A stretch of DNA of 64,000 nucleotides, taken from the IMG/VR virus record IMGVR_UViG_3300025626_000006, positions 47,910 through 111,909 of that record. The stretch is one strand, 5' to 3'. Origin of the DNA: a virus. Position numbers and translations under genes: made by a program. This document shows positions 3,601 through 47,933 of this stretch, in pieces; within the stretch, counting starts at the first letter, position 1, and each line of letters opens with the position of its first letter. The notes under the pieces were generated by a model that saw only the letters and a list, made by a program, of their open reading frames with translations, had not been told where the DNA came from and searched no databases.

Positions 3601-4890
3601 ATCTGAATGGTCGGTGTTTAGTTTAATGTTACCTAAAGACCCACTAAAAAACTTGTCTATTACTTGTTGGCTAGTTGGGTATCCTGCGTCTAACAAACTA
3701 TTCCAACTTTCAAATTCTCCACTACCATTATTGGATGATGCTAATTCGTAGTTAAAGTTTGGTTCAGAAAAATCATTAGCACTACCGATTGTTTCCAATG
3801 CATTGAAGACTATTAATTTCTCAACATAAGGTTTTATTAATTCTAATTGAACATCTACTACGTCATTAATTTTAACTGATGAGTCAACTTCCGTATATAA
3901 CTTTAATATTGCCTCATCTACTGATTGTAATCCATCAGCTTGTGTATTATATGTTAAGCTAAGATTGTCAGTATTAATAACAACAGTACCACCCGTTTCT
4001 ACTAACCTTGCCGTATCTTGTGGTACATCTGGTGGTAATGATCCAGATGTTAAGAACGGCTCATCATCTTTCTTAATCCAAGACAATGTAGTATTAGAGT
4101 TTCTTGTTAGTTTATATCTATCAAAGTTTTGGGTTACAGGATACGCTGTTGCACTTCCCGGATAAACTGTATTGAATGGTCGAGTCGTGTCTACTTCCAT
4201 AAACGTTGCCCATTTACCAACACCACCATTACCATCTAAGGTTGTAGAAGTTGGTATCCAAACCAAACCTGCTCCATCGTTTGGATAGGGCAGAGTGGCA
4301 ACAGTAACAGGATTTAACGTTCCAAAGAATGCCATATCTAAGACATTATTTATTTTGTTATTACCTAAGTTTAAAATAAATGGCGTATGATTATCTCTGC
4401 CCTCAAAAGAATTACTTGGACTTCCAATATTTTTTCCATTGTATACGTTTCGTAATCCCAAAAATGCATTAGGGGTTACTGAAGCAATTCTAATTTCTTT
4501 TTTGTCTGCGGATATCTCTGTTATTCTACCCCTAGCTACTTGATGAACATGATTATATACAATTGAATATGTACCCGATTGAAATCCAGCATATCTAATA
4601 TCCTTTTCAGGTTGTACTAAAATAGCAGGAGATGTTCCATTTGCTGGAACATTGGTTTTTATTTGATTACCAATACTTGAGTATTGTCTTTGGTCACCAG
4701 AATAAACGTGGTACTCCATTGTTGGAATCGTAAGACCCCGTACACCAGTACCAGTTAAATCTTGTGGTTGTAGCTCTAACTCAACTATCCCATTTGATAT
4801 AGCGGCTAAATCGTCTGCAGACCACGTCTGCCCAAAAGTAGGAGACTTGGAATTAACTTGGTCGGTATTTGTATATCTATCTAAAGGCAT
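676..4890 (-). CDS. large tail/baseplate protein with concanavalin-like domain (1404 aa)
   Basis: This is the largest gene of the window, in the tail block after the gp6-gp25 group. The middle (about residues 640-780) has a segment reading LPGIYKSKGTARSFKSL followed by GIPSSFLKIREYGGP, typical of baseplate-associated proteins of marine T4-like phages. A later part (about 800-960), ending in SIQEVRYYSEPLSNEIIQEH, has the look of a LamG/concanavalin-like beta sandwich. Many Ser/Gly/Asn-rich loops fit an extended fibrous protein. It overlaps the nucleotidyltransferase gene upstream by 14 bases. It may replace gp7, gp8 or gp10; no one-to-one match is claimed. Confidence 0.75.
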   Translation of the reverse strand: MPLDRYTNTDQVNSKSPTFGQTWSADDLAAISNGIVELELQPQDLTGTGVRGLTIPTMEYHVYSGDQRQYSSIGNQIKTNVPANGTSPAILVQPEKDIRYAGFQSGTYSIVYNHVHQVARGRITEISADKKEIRIASVTPNAFLGLRNVYNGKNIGSPSNSFEGRDNHTPFILNLGNNKINNVLDMAFFGTLNPVTVATLPYPNDGAGLVWIPTSTTLDGNGGVGKWATFMEVDTTRPFNTVYPGSATAYPVTQNFDRYKLTRNSNTTLSWIKKDDEPFLTSGSLPPDVPQDTARLVETGGTVVINTDNLSLTYNTQADGLQSVDEAILKLYTEVDSSVKINDVVDVQLELIKPYVEKLIVFNALETIGSANDFSEPNFNYELASSNNGSGEFESWNSLLDAGYPTSQQVIDKFFSGSLGNIKLNTDHSDFSNFVNFSSAAERVKNFRYKLQQIERFDSRISTLNNVSGSEALTNISQSQNRRDALIGGFDDFEYWLYYSNQASLYTHHSSSEFIVEPYPKASTNPNELYGSTTSQGKLWYNKTYKIAEDYDAVNAGRLRNLIPVNIQDDEKNSEYITFINMLGQHFDIVWTYIEALTTVNLREEHPKDGLPNQLVDVVAEGFGWKLFNGYSDAALWNYELGVNKTGTNDGINSGSLETKPTKEIVQETWRRLLNNLPGIYKSKGTARSFKSLISSYGIPSSFLKIREYGGPKIADTKNVYEHDRFVYKLKLSGGQPAIHPWDTIQSKRPGAIEIIGKMPQGNHTVFRLHQWDGATSDLRWHYNSQLATGHFSVTNGSSAFMTTPTVPYKKQRDIAVTVNSGSGGYSLYSAWVDDWGDILANPTASTTSHDINIIWNSTQQSSSLNRLESPFNNGINTTSSIQEVRYYSEPLSNEIIQEHAKNREAYFSDDNTTDLDLDTSFEKVLYRIFPDSTFNTISGSIISRHPNQKISTSDYGHFLSASYANGSPSQLVGEVDTMYVTIPSVGALNLTNNKVRIESGSLKGPLLFDKSNEVSQYDFAPNDSNLLGTYFSTTDTVNFDIYASEGYFEIDDLVGDTDVRNNDGYDILDFRARNYFQKYTGRTGIQLIIDMLSRYDMSIFDSMKQIVPARADWHKGILIEPHVFERNNYKRPDTISHTDHQYKANPITVVQSISGSFLHLSSSIDIDNFTSAVYKFEKIQRLNITTGQYFDDTNPYWEYSPTGSHITNARMSSHYLEPKYFYSNSVSASLGIEFANSASFHFARVQDTRLAGNIENLLYNGCKISSDSLTTDSLDTPDGGPVIEITKVEPTVLVYNTPSDNGSVGSGAGSGTKPIKPVKLVPVEDLVAYIKEVDKEDAVDSAQDVESSFQVSKPLPIPRVKGIRGGKAASNPKIIPNQTRISTDIVQRGLRGRRNRNARNLGF

Positions 4891-5466: not shown

Positions 5467-6057
5467 TTAATCTGAGTAATAGTCATCTGAGTAATAGTTT
5501 CCACCACCACCACCACCAATGGAGTTTGAACCACCAGTAACACCCGATAGGTTACCTACTCCACCACCACTTGTGTTTCCAGCTGGTTGATTAGCTTGTG
5601 CATTATTAAGGTTAGCCATATTATTATCAATGTAACCTGGTGGCACCATTGATGTGGTTTCTGTTTGACCTTCTACATAACCCCATCCAGCTGTTGTAGC
5701 TAAGTCTCTTGGGATTTGTGAATAAGTTCCTGTATTAATTCCGGCTGGAACACTTGGGTATACAAATGACAATTTCTTGATAACTGTATCTATATTATTT
5801 CTAAACGTTTGGTCATCATATCGTGTAGCTTTTGTTGATGGAGTACCTTCTATTGGTAGTACAGGCAACTGTCCATATGTTGGTGTTGCAAGGTCTGAAC
5901 TATTTGGAACTATCTCATATGATATTATCTGACCTCTAACGTTTCGCTCAATAGGACGTGACACCTGTGGGTTTTCTCCACTTGGTGCTTGTAATGGAGT
6001 TCCTGAATCTACGTTAACTGGTGTAGATGTTTGATTTGTTGTAGGTGCCATTGCCAT
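5467..6057 (-). CDS. putative tail-associated protein with Gly/Asn-rich C-terminus
   Basis: A 196-aa protein with a Thr/Ser/Pro-rich N-terminus, a short structured middle (about residues 75-140) and a low-complexity tail rich in Gly, Asn and Ser that ends with two YYSD copies. It lies between the DNRLRE-like tail protein and the nucleotidyltransferase with very short spacings, so it is read as part of the late structural operon. No family recognised. Confidence 0.6.
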   Translation of the reverse strand: MAMAPTTNQTSTPVNVDSGTPLQAPSGENPQVSRPIERNVRGQIISYEIVPNSSDLATPTYGQLPVLPIEGTPSTKATRYDDQTFRNNIDTVIKKLSFVYPSVPAGINTGTYSQIPRDLATTAGWGYVEGQTETTSMVPPGYIDNNMANLNNAQANQPAGNTSGGGVGNLSGVTGGSNSIGGGGGGNYYSDDYYSD

Positions 6058-10077: not shown

Positions 10078-10515
10078 CTATGCTATTGATAGACCACCTT
10101 GTTCATCTACATTTAATATAATTATGTTATTTGCTCCACTTTCTCCAACAGAAAATGTAAAAGAAATATTAACTCTATTACTATCCGCTAAGTTTTCTAC
10201 TACTATTTCAGTCATATTAATATATGGTAGCCAGAATTTAATATCTTCCGATACAGTATCTTTTAGATTATCTAATAGCTCTTGAGTTATATTTTCAAAT
10301 AAGAATGATGGAATATCTGTTCCAAATAATGGTTGTAGTGGTCGTTCTCCTTTACGCGTTAATAGTAAATTTTTTAAATTAGATAAAGCTTGGTCTTGTG
10401 TTGTGTAAGTGCTAGCGAATATTGGAGTACCCCCTAATGGGAATGGTATTCCAACTGCCACATTCTTTTGTAAATCTAAAGGATTTATCTTTTGTGATAC
10501 TCTAGCTTTTGCCAT
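10078..10515 (-). CDS. 25: baseplate wedge protein gp25-like
   Basis: A 145-aa protein with the gp25 pattern: GIPFPLGG...Y.T.DQALSNLKNLLLTRKGERPLQPLFG followed by helices and a final beta hairpin. gp25-family proteins join the baseplate wedge to the tail sheath and are also found in type VI secretion (TssE). It shares one base with the upstream gene and sits next to gp6, as in T4-like phages. Confidence 0.92.
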   Translation of the reverse strand: MAKARVSQKINPLDLQKNVAVGIPFPLGGTPIFASTYTTQDQALSNLKNLLLTRKGERPLQPLFGTDIPSFLFENITQELLDNLKDTVSEDIKFWLPYINMTEIVVENLADSNRVNISFTFSVGESGANNIIILNVDEQGGLSIA

Positions 10516-21279: not shown

Positions 21280-22545
21280 TTAAAATGGGTTAGACACGTC
21301 TTCAGTTTCAACATTAAATAAATCCTCATTCTCTGGCGTTTCACCTAAGAACTTTTGAATATATTGTTTGATGTAAATTCTTTCCGATTGAGCTCCACCA
21401 CTTTGGTCGAACAATGGGTAGATAGTAATCTCAGCAGCCTCAGCCAAATCAAATCCATCATAAAGTAATGAACCAATTTCGACAGCCGTTCTCGTTGATA
21501 ACGAGTTGGTCAATTTAGGTGTCTCAGACATCACATCACTTCTTGTCATAGAAGTAATCTCAGCGACATTCTGAAGAAGTGTTTTTTCTACTGAAGGATA
21601 CATCATTTCAAGAAGAGAAGTCTCTTGGTCATGAGTTAAAGTATCCATCTCAATCACAGTGAATCTATCAAGGATAGCTCTATCGAGAGCTCTTGTAGCA
21701 GTATATTCATTACCAATGTTAGCCGATGCGATGAAGGAAACACCCTCAGCCACCTTGACAACAGGAGAATCAGACGCCTCATCCAACCTTAAGTATCTTT
21801 GACCTTGGTCAAGTACAGTCATCAGAATGTTATGAGCCTCAGGATGAGCTCTCGTCAACTCATCAAGAACTACAATAGTGTTTGGAGTTTGAATCGCCTT
21901 AACGAAAGGTGAAGGGTTAAACATTGTACCCTTCTTGGTATCAAACTGAGTGTTACCAATAAGAGTTGTTCTTGGGTCTTGAGTAGCTCCCAAGTTAATA
22001 ATGAAAGTATTGTAACCTTCAAGAGAGTTAGCAGCCGCCTTAGCAGCCATGGTCTTACCACAACCAGCGGGACCTGTCATCATAATGTTCTTACCTCTCA
22101 GAATATTTCTGATTAGGTACTTCCACTTGAGTGACTGCATGAACAACATTTTAGGTTTTAAACCTTCTGACTTTTCATGAATGAAACTAAGAACATCTGA
22201 GGTCATCTCAGCCGTAGCAGCCTCAGTAACTATTTGTTTATATTGTAACGACACCAAACCACCATTAGGTTGGTTGAAGTTACCAACAGGAGTTGGGTTT
22301 TGTTCGACCTTGTCTGAAGGAACTCTTGTGAATCCAAGTTCTCCATTAGCCAAAGTACCAACTACTCTAATCTTGAAACCATACTTGTCAGGTCTCTTAG
22401 CGGCCTGTCTAGCCCTTACATATAGGGAAGTACCCTCTTCATTTAATTGAGGAACGTTGAATTGTACCCCACTTGAATCTTGGAACAAGAATAGTCCATC
22501 TACATTGACAATCTTTCCGAAAACTGATTTTTGTGCTTTACTCAT
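21280..22545 (-). CDS. MoxR/CbbQ-type AAA+ ATPase
   Basis: A beta-rich N-terminal region (1-100) precedes an AAA+ core with Walker A GPAGCGKT (158-165), Walker B TIVVLDELTRAHP, sensor ASANIGNEYTATRALDRAILDRF. MoxR/CbbQ ATPases remodel protein complexes together with a VWA-domain partner, which is encoded just upstream at 22.65-24.8 kb. A host-type promoter with paired TTAACA boxes starts this transcript. Confidence 0.88.
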   Translation of the reverse strand: MSKAQKSVFGKIVNVDGLFLFQDSSGVQFNVPQLNEEGTSLYVRARQAAKRPDKYGFKIRVVGTLANGELGFTRVPSDKVEQNPTPVGNFNQPNGGLVSLQYKQIVTEAATAEMTSDVLSFIHEKSEGLKPKMLFMQSLKWKYLIRNILRGKNIMMTGPAGCGKTMAAKAAANSLEGYNTFIINLGATQDPRTTLIGNTQFDTKKGTMFNPSPFVKAIQTPNTIVVLDELTRAHPEAHNILMTVLDQGQRYLRLDEASDSPVVKVAEGVSFIASANIGNEYTATRALDRAILDRFTVIEMDTLTHDQETSLLEMMYPSVEKTLLQNVAEITSMTRSDVMSETPKLTNSLSTRTAVEIGSLLYDGFDLAEAAEITIYPLFDQSGGAQSERIYIKQYIQKFLGETPENEDLFNVETEDVSNPF

Positions 22546-22594: not shown

Positions 22595-22650
22595 CTAAAG
22601 TACGGAATATATTTTACAATTCCAAATTTCTAATGTTAAGAAATTGTTAA
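22595..22650 (-). promoter_or_regulatory. host-type promoter with paired TTAACA boxes (for the MoxR gene)
   Basis: TTTG at 22626-22623, N20, then TACTTTAG at 22602-22595. Upstream are two TTAACA boxes 11 bases apart (TTAACA-N5-TTAACA-N7-TTTG). The boxes overlap the stop region of the VWA gene. Confidence 0.8.
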
Positions 22651-24803
22651 ATCTTTACTTCGAACTTTTTATTCAATGTTTTTGCCAGCTGAGTAACGTT
22701 GTTTACATCAATGAACTCTGCTCCTTTACCATACATCTTAGTAAATGACTCGTTACTACTTCCATAGTAACCATCTGAAATAAAGTAAGATAAAACTTGT
22801 ACACCGGCTTGTTGAATCTTTTTTACTTGAGCTGCTGTATGTTCAACAGCGTAAGTACCACCATATGAAATTTCTTTATTATCGAAACCTGGCCACCCAT
22901 CTGAAAAGTTAATGAAATAACTCTCTGTACCATTCTTTGTAGAAGTCAACTCTTTTAATACAGCCTCAAAACATAATCCCTCAGGAGTAGTTCCACAATA
23001 CATAATGTGTTTGAACAATGTCTGAATCTTGGAGAATTTATCTTTTCTTGAATCGTAAGCCATTAACATTAATGGTTGAATCGTATTGTGACTAGCACCT
23101 CTATTATACCAAATACTTCTATAAGAAATAACAACATCGATATTCTCGGTCATCGAAGCCGCCTTAGCAATAGCGACAGCAGCCGTTTGAGTCTTATTCC
23201 ATTTGTTACCACTCATTGACGAACTAGCATCAATAGAAATGTGAATCAAACTTGGAGTAGCTGTATTGATATTAATTTGGTCAAAAATATCAAAGTTACC
23301 GAATCCAATCTCGTGTAACATTCTACCATTTAGTTTACCACTCTTCATTCGTGGAGTAGAAAGAATTCTTTCTTCATTTCTCGTTTTAAGTTTTTTACCT
23401 AATTGAATACCTAATCTAATACCAGCGTTAATATTATTTTGGTTTCTATCTGTCCAAGTAGAATATGTAGTTAACATTTCCATGACATCTGAATCAACGA
23501 GGTTTTTGTTGAAGTTTCTGATGACATATGTCTGAACCCCATTTGATTGATACCCACCATAGTAACCTTGAGAAAGACCCTTACCAGTGACCTCACTTTG
23601 AATGTCAGCTTTGTCAAGTGTTTCAATCTTTTTCTTATCAGCTTTAGTAACTTTCTTTTTAGCAATATCACCATCCATAAACTTCTTTTGTTTTTCGATA
23701 GCGTTATCTAACATCTTTTTTTGTTTATCATTCAAAGGAGAAGGTGGTATCCCACCAGCACCATTCTTATTAGGAGTTGAAGGAGAACCACTCTCAGCGG
23801 TTTCATCAGTTGGGTCACCATCTTTACCATTATCAGAATCACCATCTGACTTGGAAACCTCACCCTTACCCTCGGCCTTCATAGGAGACCCACCTTGGGA
23901 TTGGTCATCAGGATCACCACTCATTGGAGACTCACCATTAGTAGTATCATCACCATCGTCACTCTCAGTACCTTGACCTTGACCACTACCCTCATCCGAT
24001 TGTGGAAGTGGGATATTCTTTTCAAGAACCATCATAATCTCACCAGCCAACTCAAGAGAGTCATCTGTACTTTTTAGTCTTGAAATATTTCTAAGGTCAA
24101 GAAGATTCCAAATCTCTTTCAACCCATTCAATGCGTCCAAGTCTCTATTGGAGTTGGTTATATTAATAAGTCTGTACATATAAGAATCCCAATCCTCAGT
24201 TCTGTATTCCGAAGACTTAAGTCCCTTGTCAACTATATTAGCGTGGAAGTACTTGTCATACATAGACTCATAGTAACCTCTATAACCAGGAGCCGATTGG
24301 TAAATTGAATTATCAATTCGTCTATCTTCTACATAGTTAAGTAGATTTTTAATGTTAGTGAAGAACTCAGTATTGTACTGAAGGTGTGTTCTTAATGTAT
24401 CAACGTCATCTTTACCATACTTATCCATTAAAACATTAGTGTCAATAGACTTTGGTAGTATACCACTAAGTAAGTGGTTTAGAACTTTAAAGTCGGTTAA
24501 AGCGATGTGAGAACCCTCATGTAAAGCCAGACCAACAACAGGGTCAAACTCTTTATCGTCCAACTTAGCCGAAATAACAACAGACTTACCATCGGTATAA
24601 GAATCACCCCTACCATCAAAGGTCACAGGAATACTTTTACCTGTCACGATATTAACAAAGTTACTAATACTCTTCTTATATGACATCAACTTCATGAGGT
24701 CATTAGACTTTTTCTCTACCTTGGTCTCATCTTTAGACTCTTCCCATATAGACTTGTCAGCCCAAAAGGATGAATAATTTAATTTGTTAGTTGTATATTT
24801 CAT
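22647..24803 (-). CDS. VWA-domain protein with N-terminal zincin motif (MoxR partner)
   Basis: The ATG at 24803 is preferred; a GTG 11 codons upstream is also open. LALHEGSHIALTDF gives HExxH at residues 95-99, with NYVEDRRID further on as a likely third ligand, as in the putative metallopeptidase family that carries a VWA end. A low-complexity acidic Gly/Ser linker (about 270-370) leads to a VWA domain with MIDAS motif DASSS near residue 525. Like CobT/CbbO/CoxE it would work with the AAA+ ATPase encoded next. 718 aa. Confidence 0.8.
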   Translation of the reverse strand: MKYTTNKLNYSSFWADKSIWEESKDETKVEKKSNDLMKLMSYKKSISNFVNIVTGKSIPVTFDGRGDSYTDGKSVVISAKLDDKEFDPVVGLALHEGSHIALTDFKVLNHLLSGILPKSIDTNVLMDKYGKDDVDTLRTHLQYNTEFFTNIKNLLNYVEDRRIDNSIYQSAPGYRGYYESMYDKYFHANIVDKGLKSSEYRTEDWDSYMYRLINITNSNRDLDALNGLKEIWNLLDLRNISRLKSTDDSLELAGEIMMVLEKNIPLPQSDEGSGQGQGTESDDGDDTTNGESPMSGDPDDQSQGGSPMKAEGKGEVSKSDGDSDNGKDGDPTDETAESGSPSTPNKNGAGGIPPSPLNDKQKKMLDNAIEKQKKFMDGDIAKKKVTKADKKKIETLDKADIQSEVTGKGLSQGYYGGYQSNGVQTYVIRNFNKNLVDSDVMEMLTTYSTWTDRNQNNINAGIRLGIQLGKKLKTRNEERILSTPRMKSGKLNGRMLHEIGFGNFDIFDQININTATPSLIHISIDASSSMSGNKWNKTQTAAVAIAKAASMTENIDVVISYRSIWYNRGASHNTIQPLMLMAYDSRKDKFSKIQTLFKHIMYCGTTPEGLCFEAVLKELTSTKNGTESYFINFSDGWPGFDNKEISYGGTYAVEHTAAQVKKIQQAGVQVLSYFISDGYYGSSNESFTKMYGKGAEFIDVNNVTQLAKTLNKKFEVKI

Positions 24804-24848
24804 AATTTTCAATTTAAGTAGTGAATAAACTCTCACCCATTAACTATA

Positions 24849-26805: not shown

Positions 26806-26818
26806 ATCTATAACTTAG

Positions 26819-26890
26819 TACTCCGTAGGAGAATCGAACTCCTATTTTATGGATGAAAACCATATGTCCTAACCGTTAGACGAACGGAGC
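26819..26890 (-). tRNA. tRNA-Glu (UUC)
   Basis: Full cloverleaf: acceptor GCTCCGT/ACGGAGT, D arm GTC...GAC, anticodon loop TTTTCAT between TATGG/CCATA, T arm AGGAG-TTCGATT-CTCCT, discriminator A. CCA is not encoded. It is the last RNA of the cluster and follows the two tRNA-like RNAs. Confidence 0.95.
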
Positions 26891-26904: not shown

Positions 26905-26985
26905 GGCAGTTGAGCGGAAGGGTGGCTACTGCCCCACCATCTATGTACTGGATGTACATCGAGTTTCTCTAAACTCTTCTTCCGC
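26905..26985 (-). ncRNA. tRNA-like structured RNA 1 (tRNA-Gly mimic)
   Basis: RNA runs from 26985 down. Stem P1 26979-26985/26914-26920 (7 bp), P2 26971-26976/26961-26966, P3 26954-26959/26943-26948 with loop AUCCA, P4 26934-26938/26921-26925 with 8-nt loop. Connectors of 2, 1, 4 and 0 nt are those of a tRNA. G1-C72, C2-G71, U73 and UCC at positions 34-36 match glycine identity, followed by CAA. Position 33 is A and no T-loop motif exists; the P4 loop pairs with the 3' tail (26905-26910, 6 bp). Confidence 0.75.
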
Positions 26986-27062
26986 AGTTGAGCGAAGGGT
27001 TGGAACTGCCCCAACTTCTCCTATCTGGATGATAAGCGACTTTCTTTTAAGTCTTCCCTCGC
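26984..27062 (-). ncRNA. tRNA-like structured RNA 2 (tRNA-Gly mimic)
   Basis: A diverged copy of the neighbouring RNA. P1 27056-27062/26992-26998 (7 bp with one G.U), P2 27049-27053/27038-27042, P3 27031-27036/27020-27025 (one U.G) with loop AUCCA, P4 27011-27015/26999-27003 with 7-nt loop GGCAGUU. The two G.U pairs exist only on the minus strand and many stem positions differ from copy 1 while still pairing. The loop pairs with the tail at 26984-26989. The promoter at 27074-27105 starts transcription a few bases upstream. Confidence 0.75.
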
Positions 27063-27073
27063 AATTATGTTAC

Positions 27074-27105
27074 ACAATATACGAAATAAATTCCATACTA
27101 CCAAA
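27074..27105 (-). promoter_or_regulatory. host-type promoter of the tRNA-like RNAs and tRNA-Glu
   Basis: TTTG (27105-27102), N20, TATATTGT (27081-27074). Expected start near 27067, about 5 bases before the first stem of RNA 2, so the transcript begins directly with the structured RNA. No paired TTAACA boxes. Confidence 0.7.
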
Positions 27106-27126
27106 TGTTTTATGAATTAAATTTTG

Positions 27127-27200
27127 TGGAGAATATCGGAGTCGAACCGATGACCTCTTCGGTGCAAGCGAAGCGCTCTAGCCAGCTGAGCTAATTCCCC
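27127..27200 (-). tRNA. tRNA-Ala (UGC)
   Basis: Acceptor GGGGAAT/ATTCTCC with discriminator A, D arm GCTC...GAGC, anticodon loop CTTGCAC, T arm TCGG-TTCGACT-CCGA. CCA not encoded. 74 nt. Confidence 0.95.
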
Positions 27201-27205
27201 TTGAG

Positions 27206-27290
27206 CGGAGAAGAAGGGATTCGAACCCCTGGTACGTTTCCGTACGCTGGTTTTCAAGACCAGTGCATTCGACCACTCTGCCACTTCTCC
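27206..27290 (-). tRNA. tRNA-Ser (UGA)
   Basis: Acceptor GGAGAAG/CTTCTCC, discriminator G, anticodon loop CTTGAAA, long variable arm with GTACG-AAA-CGTAC-type pairing, T arm AGGGG-TTCGAAT-CCCTT. 85 nt, normal class II tRNA. Confidence 0.95.
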
Positions 27291-27716: not shown

Positions 27717-27790
<74 letters not shown>

Positions 27791-27887
27791 ATAAAAAAGA
27801 GAGGTTTCGGGTCTTTCGGGGTTACTACGATATAGAGGTTAACCCTTACCTTTTTCTATACCATTGTAGCTTCACTACCTCTCTTTG
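27791..27887 (-). ncRNA. structured RNA filling the tRNA-Leu/tRNA-Arg gap
   Basis: The minus-strand RNA closes with a 10-bp stem (27877-27886/27796-27805). Inside are CTAC/GTAG (27866-27869/27825-27828) and TATAGA/TCTATA (27855-27860/27831-27836); the loop sequence at 27840-27845 can pair with 27819-27824 (GGGTTA/TAACCC) to form a pseudoknot. A CCCGAAA motif is repeated twice near the 3' side. tRNA processing on both sides would release it as a 97-nt RNA. Type unknown. Confidence 0.6.
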
Positions 27888-47735: not shown

Positions 47736-47933
47736 TTATTTTAATCCAATTATTAATTTTTTATAGTCTACTGATATTAGTCCAAGGACACCAAGTACTA
47801 AACCTAATACACAAAATGCCATTTCATTTAGAACATCAGAGAAGTGGATATATTGTTGGATAGTTCCACTCATAGTTAAGTATCCTAATCCAAATCCTAA
47901 TATTGTCAAGATGATTGATTGATAATTTTTCAT
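47736..47933 (-). CDS. small two-helix membrane protein (65 aa)
   Basis: Two hydrophobic segments (QSIILTILGFGLGYLTM and MAFCVLGLVLGVLGLISVD) with a short loop. Function unknown. Confidence 0.55.
   Translation of the reverse strand: MKNYQSIILTILGFGLGYLTMSGTIQQYIHFSDVLNEMAFCVLGLVLGVLGLISVDYKKLIIGLK

Follow-up and report, generated by a model that had tools for sequence, protein, structure and literature searches.

Altered glycine tRNAs in a phage tRNA cluster belong to a covarying RNA family linked to Mom and DruA-like genes and may donate glycine for DNA modification

A tRNA cluster on the minus strand of a 64,000-nucleotide stretch of phage DNA (the window; positions 47,910 to 111,909 of IMG/VR record IMGVR_UViG_3300025626_000006) reads Leu, Arg, Met, Ser, Ala, two tRNA-like units that we call A and B, and Glu. 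The two units are the subject of this work. Unit A (26987-27062) consists of 71 nt (core 27062-26992) followed by U73, C74 and 3 nt, and unit B comes immediately after it (26909-26985; core 26985-26914, also with U73 and then C74 behind it); their scores with the covariance model R1, introduced below, are 95.1 bits (E 6e-21) and 92.6 bits (E 3e-20). Each unit has a 7-bp acceptor-like stem, connectors of 2, 1, 4 and 0 nt and three hairpins, and its columns match tRNA numbering through position 44. Neither was called by ARAGORN or Rfam, though the flanking tRNAs were: tRNA-Ser(UGA) (27205-27290, ARAGORN) and tRNA-Ala(UGC) (27126-27200, ARAGORN) upstream and tRNA-Glu(UUC) (26818-26890, ARAGORN and Rfam), the next gene downstream, all on the minus strand. 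A preliminary description of the window had given this layout of two adjacent minus-strand units, with its tRNA-like connectors, 7-bp stem, (C)AUCCA(G) loop and GGCAGU loop, and all of it is present. Its reading of tRNA-Gly mimicry on the minus strand agrees with the fold z-scores (-2.2 and -1.9 on the minus strand vs -0.2 and -0.7 on the plus strand) and with the covariance-model search, in which tRNA-Gly are the next matches. About 13 nt ahead of G1 of unit A lies a minus-strand stretch (27075-27105; TTTG at 27105-27102, TATATTG at 27081-27075) that resembles a promoter of the Bacteroidota type; the corresponding stretch of L061/L062 can be read in the same way (L-numbers denote loci, G-numbers larger phage records and G000 the window's own record).

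The units are members of an extensive RNA family with strong covariation that ARAGORN and Rfam overlook. Tandem homologues were found by a pattern scan of IMG/VR, and a descriptor followed by covariance model R1 gave about 70 strong matches across 82 loci from T4-like relatives. In the model search, which the preliminary description had proposed, family members score 75-101 bits and the next matches are true tRNA-Gly at 30-40 bits. Across 37 homologous units, chosen by a pairing descriptor so that their figure of 100% paired is due to selection, 11 pairs changed on both sides, with 139 compensated cells; none of 500 shuffles reached this number, and no more than 16 remain once the partners are shifted by 1-3 columns. 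The claim that pairing is kept while the stems differ is thereby borne out. Another early claim fared worse: the pairing of the T-arm loop with the 3' tail, described as 6 bp in both units, has this length in unit B and only 5 bp in unit A, where the last two bases of the tail ACTGC are the first two (G1-C2) of unit B. As such pairing was found in 5 of 74 distinct units, we rejected the pseudoknot as a conserved functional feature.

Looser patterns widen the family to the window clade, a near-canonical clade, GC-rich phages together with contigs of metagenome-assembled genomes (MAGs), and tRNA-rich large phages. Distinct sequences with the altered elbow number at least 91, a lower bound on the size of the family. 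The near-canonical RNA is found in pelagi-type and other T4-like phages, where it is often the sole tRNA of the locus and begins directly behind a sigma-70-like promoter sequence; it retains U33 with a standard anticodon loop (TTACCAA, TTTCCAA). Among contigs of bacterial genomes, the looser pattern matched 44, of which 3 are convincing (L234, L259, L268), and a stricter first pattern matched none. An Rfam search returned no family matching the units, and BLAST with window-clade units against cultured phages no close homologue; the model search later placed the RNA in the cultured Pelagibacter phage HTVC008M. The units were also considered as a T-box-type or other cis-regulatory element, which we rejected because the genes downstream of them vary among phages.

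The bacterial glycine identity set comprises U73, G1-C72, C2-G71, G3-C70, C35 and C36 (PMC9976931). U73 is present in 91 of 91 distinct variant sequences (partly by selection where search patterns fixed a 3' CGCTC), C35-C36 in all 90 with a 7-nt loop, and G1-C72, C2-G71 and G3-C70 in nearly all of the 91, which extends to the family the glycine identity first read from the two copies. The anticodon was not specified in the collection-wide patterns, and the set derived from DruA (see below) is free of any RNA pattern. In unit A, UCC stands in the anticodon position (27027-27029, minus) within C32-A33-UCC-A37-G38; in unit B it lies at 26950-26952 (minus), again with A at position 33. The units thus combine the cloverleaf, tRNA spacing and glycine identity elements of an elongator tRNA-Gly with the absence of U33 and its 7-nt decoding loop, and of the T-loop UUCRA and G18-G19. 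A possible C32-G38 pair shrinks the loop in the window clade, where U8 is replaced by A, U33 is not kept and the wobble base is not fixed; among the variant sequences all four bases occur at position 33 and U, A or C at position 34, and L168 has GCC in the anticodon position. To judge by their sequences, the units are altered glycine tRNAs with full glycine identity whose decoding features were lost in the window clade, and they look unfit for protein synthesis, as had been supposed from the start.

The preliminary description had also taken the units to lack a T-loop. The loss of U33 holds; the T-loop is not absent but altered. The T-arm loop is GGCAGTT in unit A (27004-27010, minus; positions 54-60, with G54 G55 C56 A57 G58 coupled to A18-G19 of the D-loop) and GGCAGTAG, of 8 nt, in unit B (26926-26933, minus; also with A18-G19). 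Across the family the pattern is G54 G55 C56 R57 G58 facing A18 G19. Among 99 distinct sequences, comprising the family and true tRNA-Gly, A18 goes with G55 in 73 and G18 with U55 in 26, with no mixed case, and positions 54/58 are G/G in 64, U/A in 32 and U/U in 3. Read from these columns, the elbow has been rebuilt and not lost: G19-C56 is kept, and G18-Psi55 and U54-A58 are replaced. Intermediates join the canonical form to the full variant (L073:4297, L092:5149, L339, L355, L372, L412, L414), and the RNA of HTVC008M has A54-G55-C56 together with A18. The T-stem of the units carries U51-A63 in place of G51-C63, and these changes (A18, U51-A63, G54-G55) are of the kind that weakens the use of a tRNA by EF-Tu (PMC4052509). 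Whatever the mechanism, the elbow with its coupled A18-G55 and G54-G58 offers a clear example from nature of a tertiary contact in tRNA that has been rewired.

Mom is the gene with which the RNA overlaps in the GC-rich clade (for the neighbour in L172, Pfam PF25680, E 6e-44; PHROG 1384). Among loci that had been found by the RNA pattern alone, our own Mom profile placed Mom across or directly against the RNA in 17, from unrelated phages and including the bacterial MAG contigs L234, L259 and L268; in L175, mom starts right after the RNA. The reverse scan, from the Mom protein alone, recovered the RNA in 5 of 80 loci and is weaker than the corresponding scan with DruA. The model of a G001 partner protein (predicted local distance difference test score 85) has phage Mu Mom (8bv8) as its best PDB match (E 6e-14), and H, Y, E, S and D residues of catalytic appearance are invariant in the partner proteins. 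Judging by profile, modelled fold and conserved residues, the partners in relatives of the window's phage are true members of the Mom family to which the Mu enzyme (PF25680) belongs. In the cultured Microbacterium phage Appa an annotated tRNA-Gly with a normal elbow lies directly beside mom. RNA and Mom also occur together in the window's phage group: at least two Mom genes are present in 10 of 10 RNA-positive records above 100 kb (G001-G006, G064, G068, G074, G076), with DruA in addition in G001-G006. The two large RNA-negative relatives G008 and G009 have neither gene; G010, also RNA-negative, has one Mom of a third type.

Other observations concern Mom neighbourhoods. In L417, one of the five loci recovered with the Mom protein, mom has on either side a copy of one and the same RNA resembling a glycine tRNA (2857-2932 and 3910-3985), as if in a mobile cassette. 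An open reading frame (ORF) of 518-544 amino acids in L297:1363-2919 (G031) matches Mom weakly, contains sequence of nuclease type and resembles Mom-endonuclease fusions (PMC7824862). It was rejected as the partner of the RNA in the second clade because other records do not share it, as was Acetyltransf_6 (PF13480), which was found in none of 12 records.

The second linkage is to DruA-like proteins. The partner proteins of pelagi-type T4-like phages match DruA (PF14236), a component of the Druantia defence system, above the Pfam cut-off, but they occur in phages, beside tRNA-Gly and outside a recognised Druantia operon. A search based only on the DruA-like protein of L145 gave 424 relatives and 80 loci, and 44 of these loci carry a tRNA-Gly or its variant on the same strand: at most 81 nt downstream in 22, at most 13 nt upstream in 10 and within 630 nt in most others. 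Most of the gaps measure 8-81 nt on the downstream side or 9-13 nt on the upstream side. ARAGORN, applied to 23 of the DruA-like loci, called no tRNA of an isotype other than Gly. The RNAs beside DruA form an evolutionary series, from canonical tRNA-Gly(UCC) to the full variant in the same slot. In HTVC008M the RNA and a DruA-like gene lie 8 kb apart, and the DruA-like protein of S-SCSM2R was named 'methylcarbamoylase mom' by its depositors.

Mom, known from phage Mu, is a GNAT-fold enzyme that modifies adenine, and the Mom base, N6-carbamoylmethyl-adenine, is a purinyl glycinamide: adenine plus C2H3NO, exactly one glycine residue. We propose, with a probability of about 60%, that the units are altered glycine tRNAs that are charged by glycyl-tRNA synthetase, withdrawn from translation and used to give glycine to phage DNA through Mom and DruA-like enzymes. 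What suggests this role is the company that the RNA keeps: its association with these genes is observed, and the chemistry is proposed. We also lean, slightly less firmly, towards the general form of this proposal, in which a phage-encoded, dedicated glycyl-tRNA that is barred from the ribosome is the donor in tRNA-dependent DNA hypermodification by both kinds of enzyme. The complete glycine identity set suggests that the host synthetase would still charge the unit; the changes in the anticodon loop would block decoding, and those in the elbow and T-stem would lower its use by EF-Tu and the ribosome. The glycyl-RNA would be the glycine donor for the phage's GNAT-fold Mom enzymes, and probably for the DruA-like proteins too, which would attach the glycine to phage DNA and so mark it against restriction. 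For Mom we infer an acyl (glycyl) transfer to adenine N6 followed by a Smiles-type rearrangement that would yield the Mom base. Published proposals for the Mom donor are acyl-CoA molecules such as glycyl-CoA (PMC7824862). A literature search of partial coverage found no paper tying Mom to glycyl-tRNA, and prior publication is possible.

Several results weigh against this proposal. No mom or DruA gene is present in the window's own 112-kb record. Between 20 and 78 kb, G001 runs collinear with the window in G000; it carries DruA at 102 kb and a pair of mom genes at 109.5-111 kb, further on than G000 reaches. Because G000 ends short of this region, the partner genes are predicted rather than seen, and we expect the window's phage to carry mom and DruA-like genes in the missing stretch, which would correspond to about 84-139 kb of G001. 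The co-occurrence counts for the window's phage group are not independent, since the phages are related (G002, G064, G074 and G076 closely so). The RNA is absent from phage Mu and from most cultured Mom phages checked, which means that Mom does not need it and that host Gly-tRNA would have to serve there; none was found in PA5oct, said to carry five Mom enzymes. No Mom or DruA partner was detected for a second group with a near-canonical form, in tRNA-rich phages (L105, L114, L120, L098 and L203), and no partner for L162, L165 and L137. As for DruA, 36 of the 80 loci have no local RNA (in many the sequence breaks off close to the gene, whereas several extend 4 kb to either side), the comparison of DruA and Mom profiles was not significant, the structure model of DruA is poor and no relative was found by sequence among solved structures. 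Finally, some tRNA-rich phages show this elbow change in tRNAs for Ala, His, Val and Lys as well (G55 T-loops at L202:7270-7345, L203:10942-11016 and 10238-10313, L177:2042-2117 and 5555-5629), so that on its own it is no sign of a glycine-donor role.

The preliminary description had suggested glycyl-tRNA decoys, and its mimicry part stands. A decoy would soak up a toxin or nuclease that the host directs at phages, or would occupy glycyl-tRNA synthetase, and its linkage to DNA-modifying genes would reflect the clustering of counter-defence genes, which these genes themselves are. Units in tandem or triplicate that keep the anticodon loop and acceptor end and have lost decoding would suit such a role. 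Yet it leaves the specific Mom or DruA-like partner and the frequent 8-81 nt gaps unexplained, whereas the glycine-donor role predicts this linkage; nor does it account for the related phages in which the slot beside DruA holds a tRNA-Gly that is fully canonical, and no host system targeting tRNA-Gly was identified. We therefore regard a decoy as unlikely. The canonical tRNA-Gly(UCC) in that slot would rather fit a working elongator with an unusual elbow that reads glycine codons during infection, as would the U33 and standard anticodon loop of the near-canonical clade and the other isotypes with the same elbow change. This is improbable for RNAs of the window clade, with any base at position 33, a loop-shrinking C32-G38 pair and an unfixed wobble base, and for an RNA that is often the sole tRNA of its locus and accompanies Mom or DruA.

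The charged RNA might instead serve to glycylate something other than DNA, such as a protein, a lipid or a small molecule, or might itself be modified by the partners. Enzymes that use aminoacyl-tRNA outside translation exist, as FemX and L/F-transferase show (PMC4052509), and the chemistry of DruA-like proteins leaves room for it; we nevertheless give this reading little weight, as Mom is a known DNA adenine modifier whose product equals adenine plus glycine in composition and the catalytic-looking residues are conserved in the partners. That the units are degenerate tRNA-Gly pseudogenes or a functionless local repeat would accord with their clear descent from tRNA-Gly and with the lack of an ARAGORN or Rfam call. 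This is very improbable, given that the stems covary strongly, the odd loops are invariant over many very different phages and the identity elements are consistent, and members of the second clade have their own promoters; the covariation already refutes it.

Canonical phage tRNA-Gly, which provides the next covariance-model matches and shares the acceptor end and the slot beside DruA, is the clear ancestor of the family, but the window units lack its U8, U33, G18, U54-U55 and A58. A known counterpart is the non-proteinogenic tRNA-Gly of Staphylococcus aureus, a donor to FemXAB for the cell wall, in which G18-G19 is replaced and T-stem pairs are weak for EF-Tu (PMC4052509); our units resemble it in these respects and in their proposed use away from the ribosome. 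Unlike it (UU or CU at 18-19), the family has A18-G19 with G54-G55-C56-R57-G58, the units are phage-encoded, the anticodon loop is broken in the window clade and the linkage is to DNA-modifying instead of cell-wall genes. If the glycine-donor proposal is true, it joins translation to DNA modification, a DNA base being built with an aminoacyl-tRNA; it would explain the source of the Mom group, which is testable in Escherichia coli with phage Mu, and would suggest that DruA-like proteins transfer glycine, a clue to DruA chemistry. Beyond this, the work adds a widespread RNA family that tRNA finders overlook.

Further features lie in or near such clusters. Phage T4 has two non-tRNA stable RNAs, C and D, in its tRNA cluster; no evidence was found for the link to them that the preliminary description had raised, and no comparison was aimed at them. 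Between tRNA-Leu and tRNA-Arg, the window contains a structured non-tRNA element (27790-27886, minus; GAGAGGT...ACCTCTC and a T run; fold z about -2), with near-identical copies in L075:2200-2295 and L017:217-311, which is possibly another stable phage RNA. In L062 and L077 (unit A start at 923 and 4718, respectively), a small ORF (MNWDSVHISDKIHWL...) runs into unit A and stops within its D-arm; this ORF is absent from the window, where the promoter-like stretch adjoins unit A. An AAA ATPase of 421 amino acids (21280-22545), which served as a query for relatives, and an adjacent 729-residue protein with the look of a VWA-domain partner (22647-24836) are encoded near the tRNA cluster. Relatives of the window's phage carry transfer-messenger RNA genes (L079:6434-6761, L082:6513-6838, L083:7009-7334) with the tags GNTSYAMAA and GNTSLAMAA, and the one in L079 lies just upstream of tandem units.
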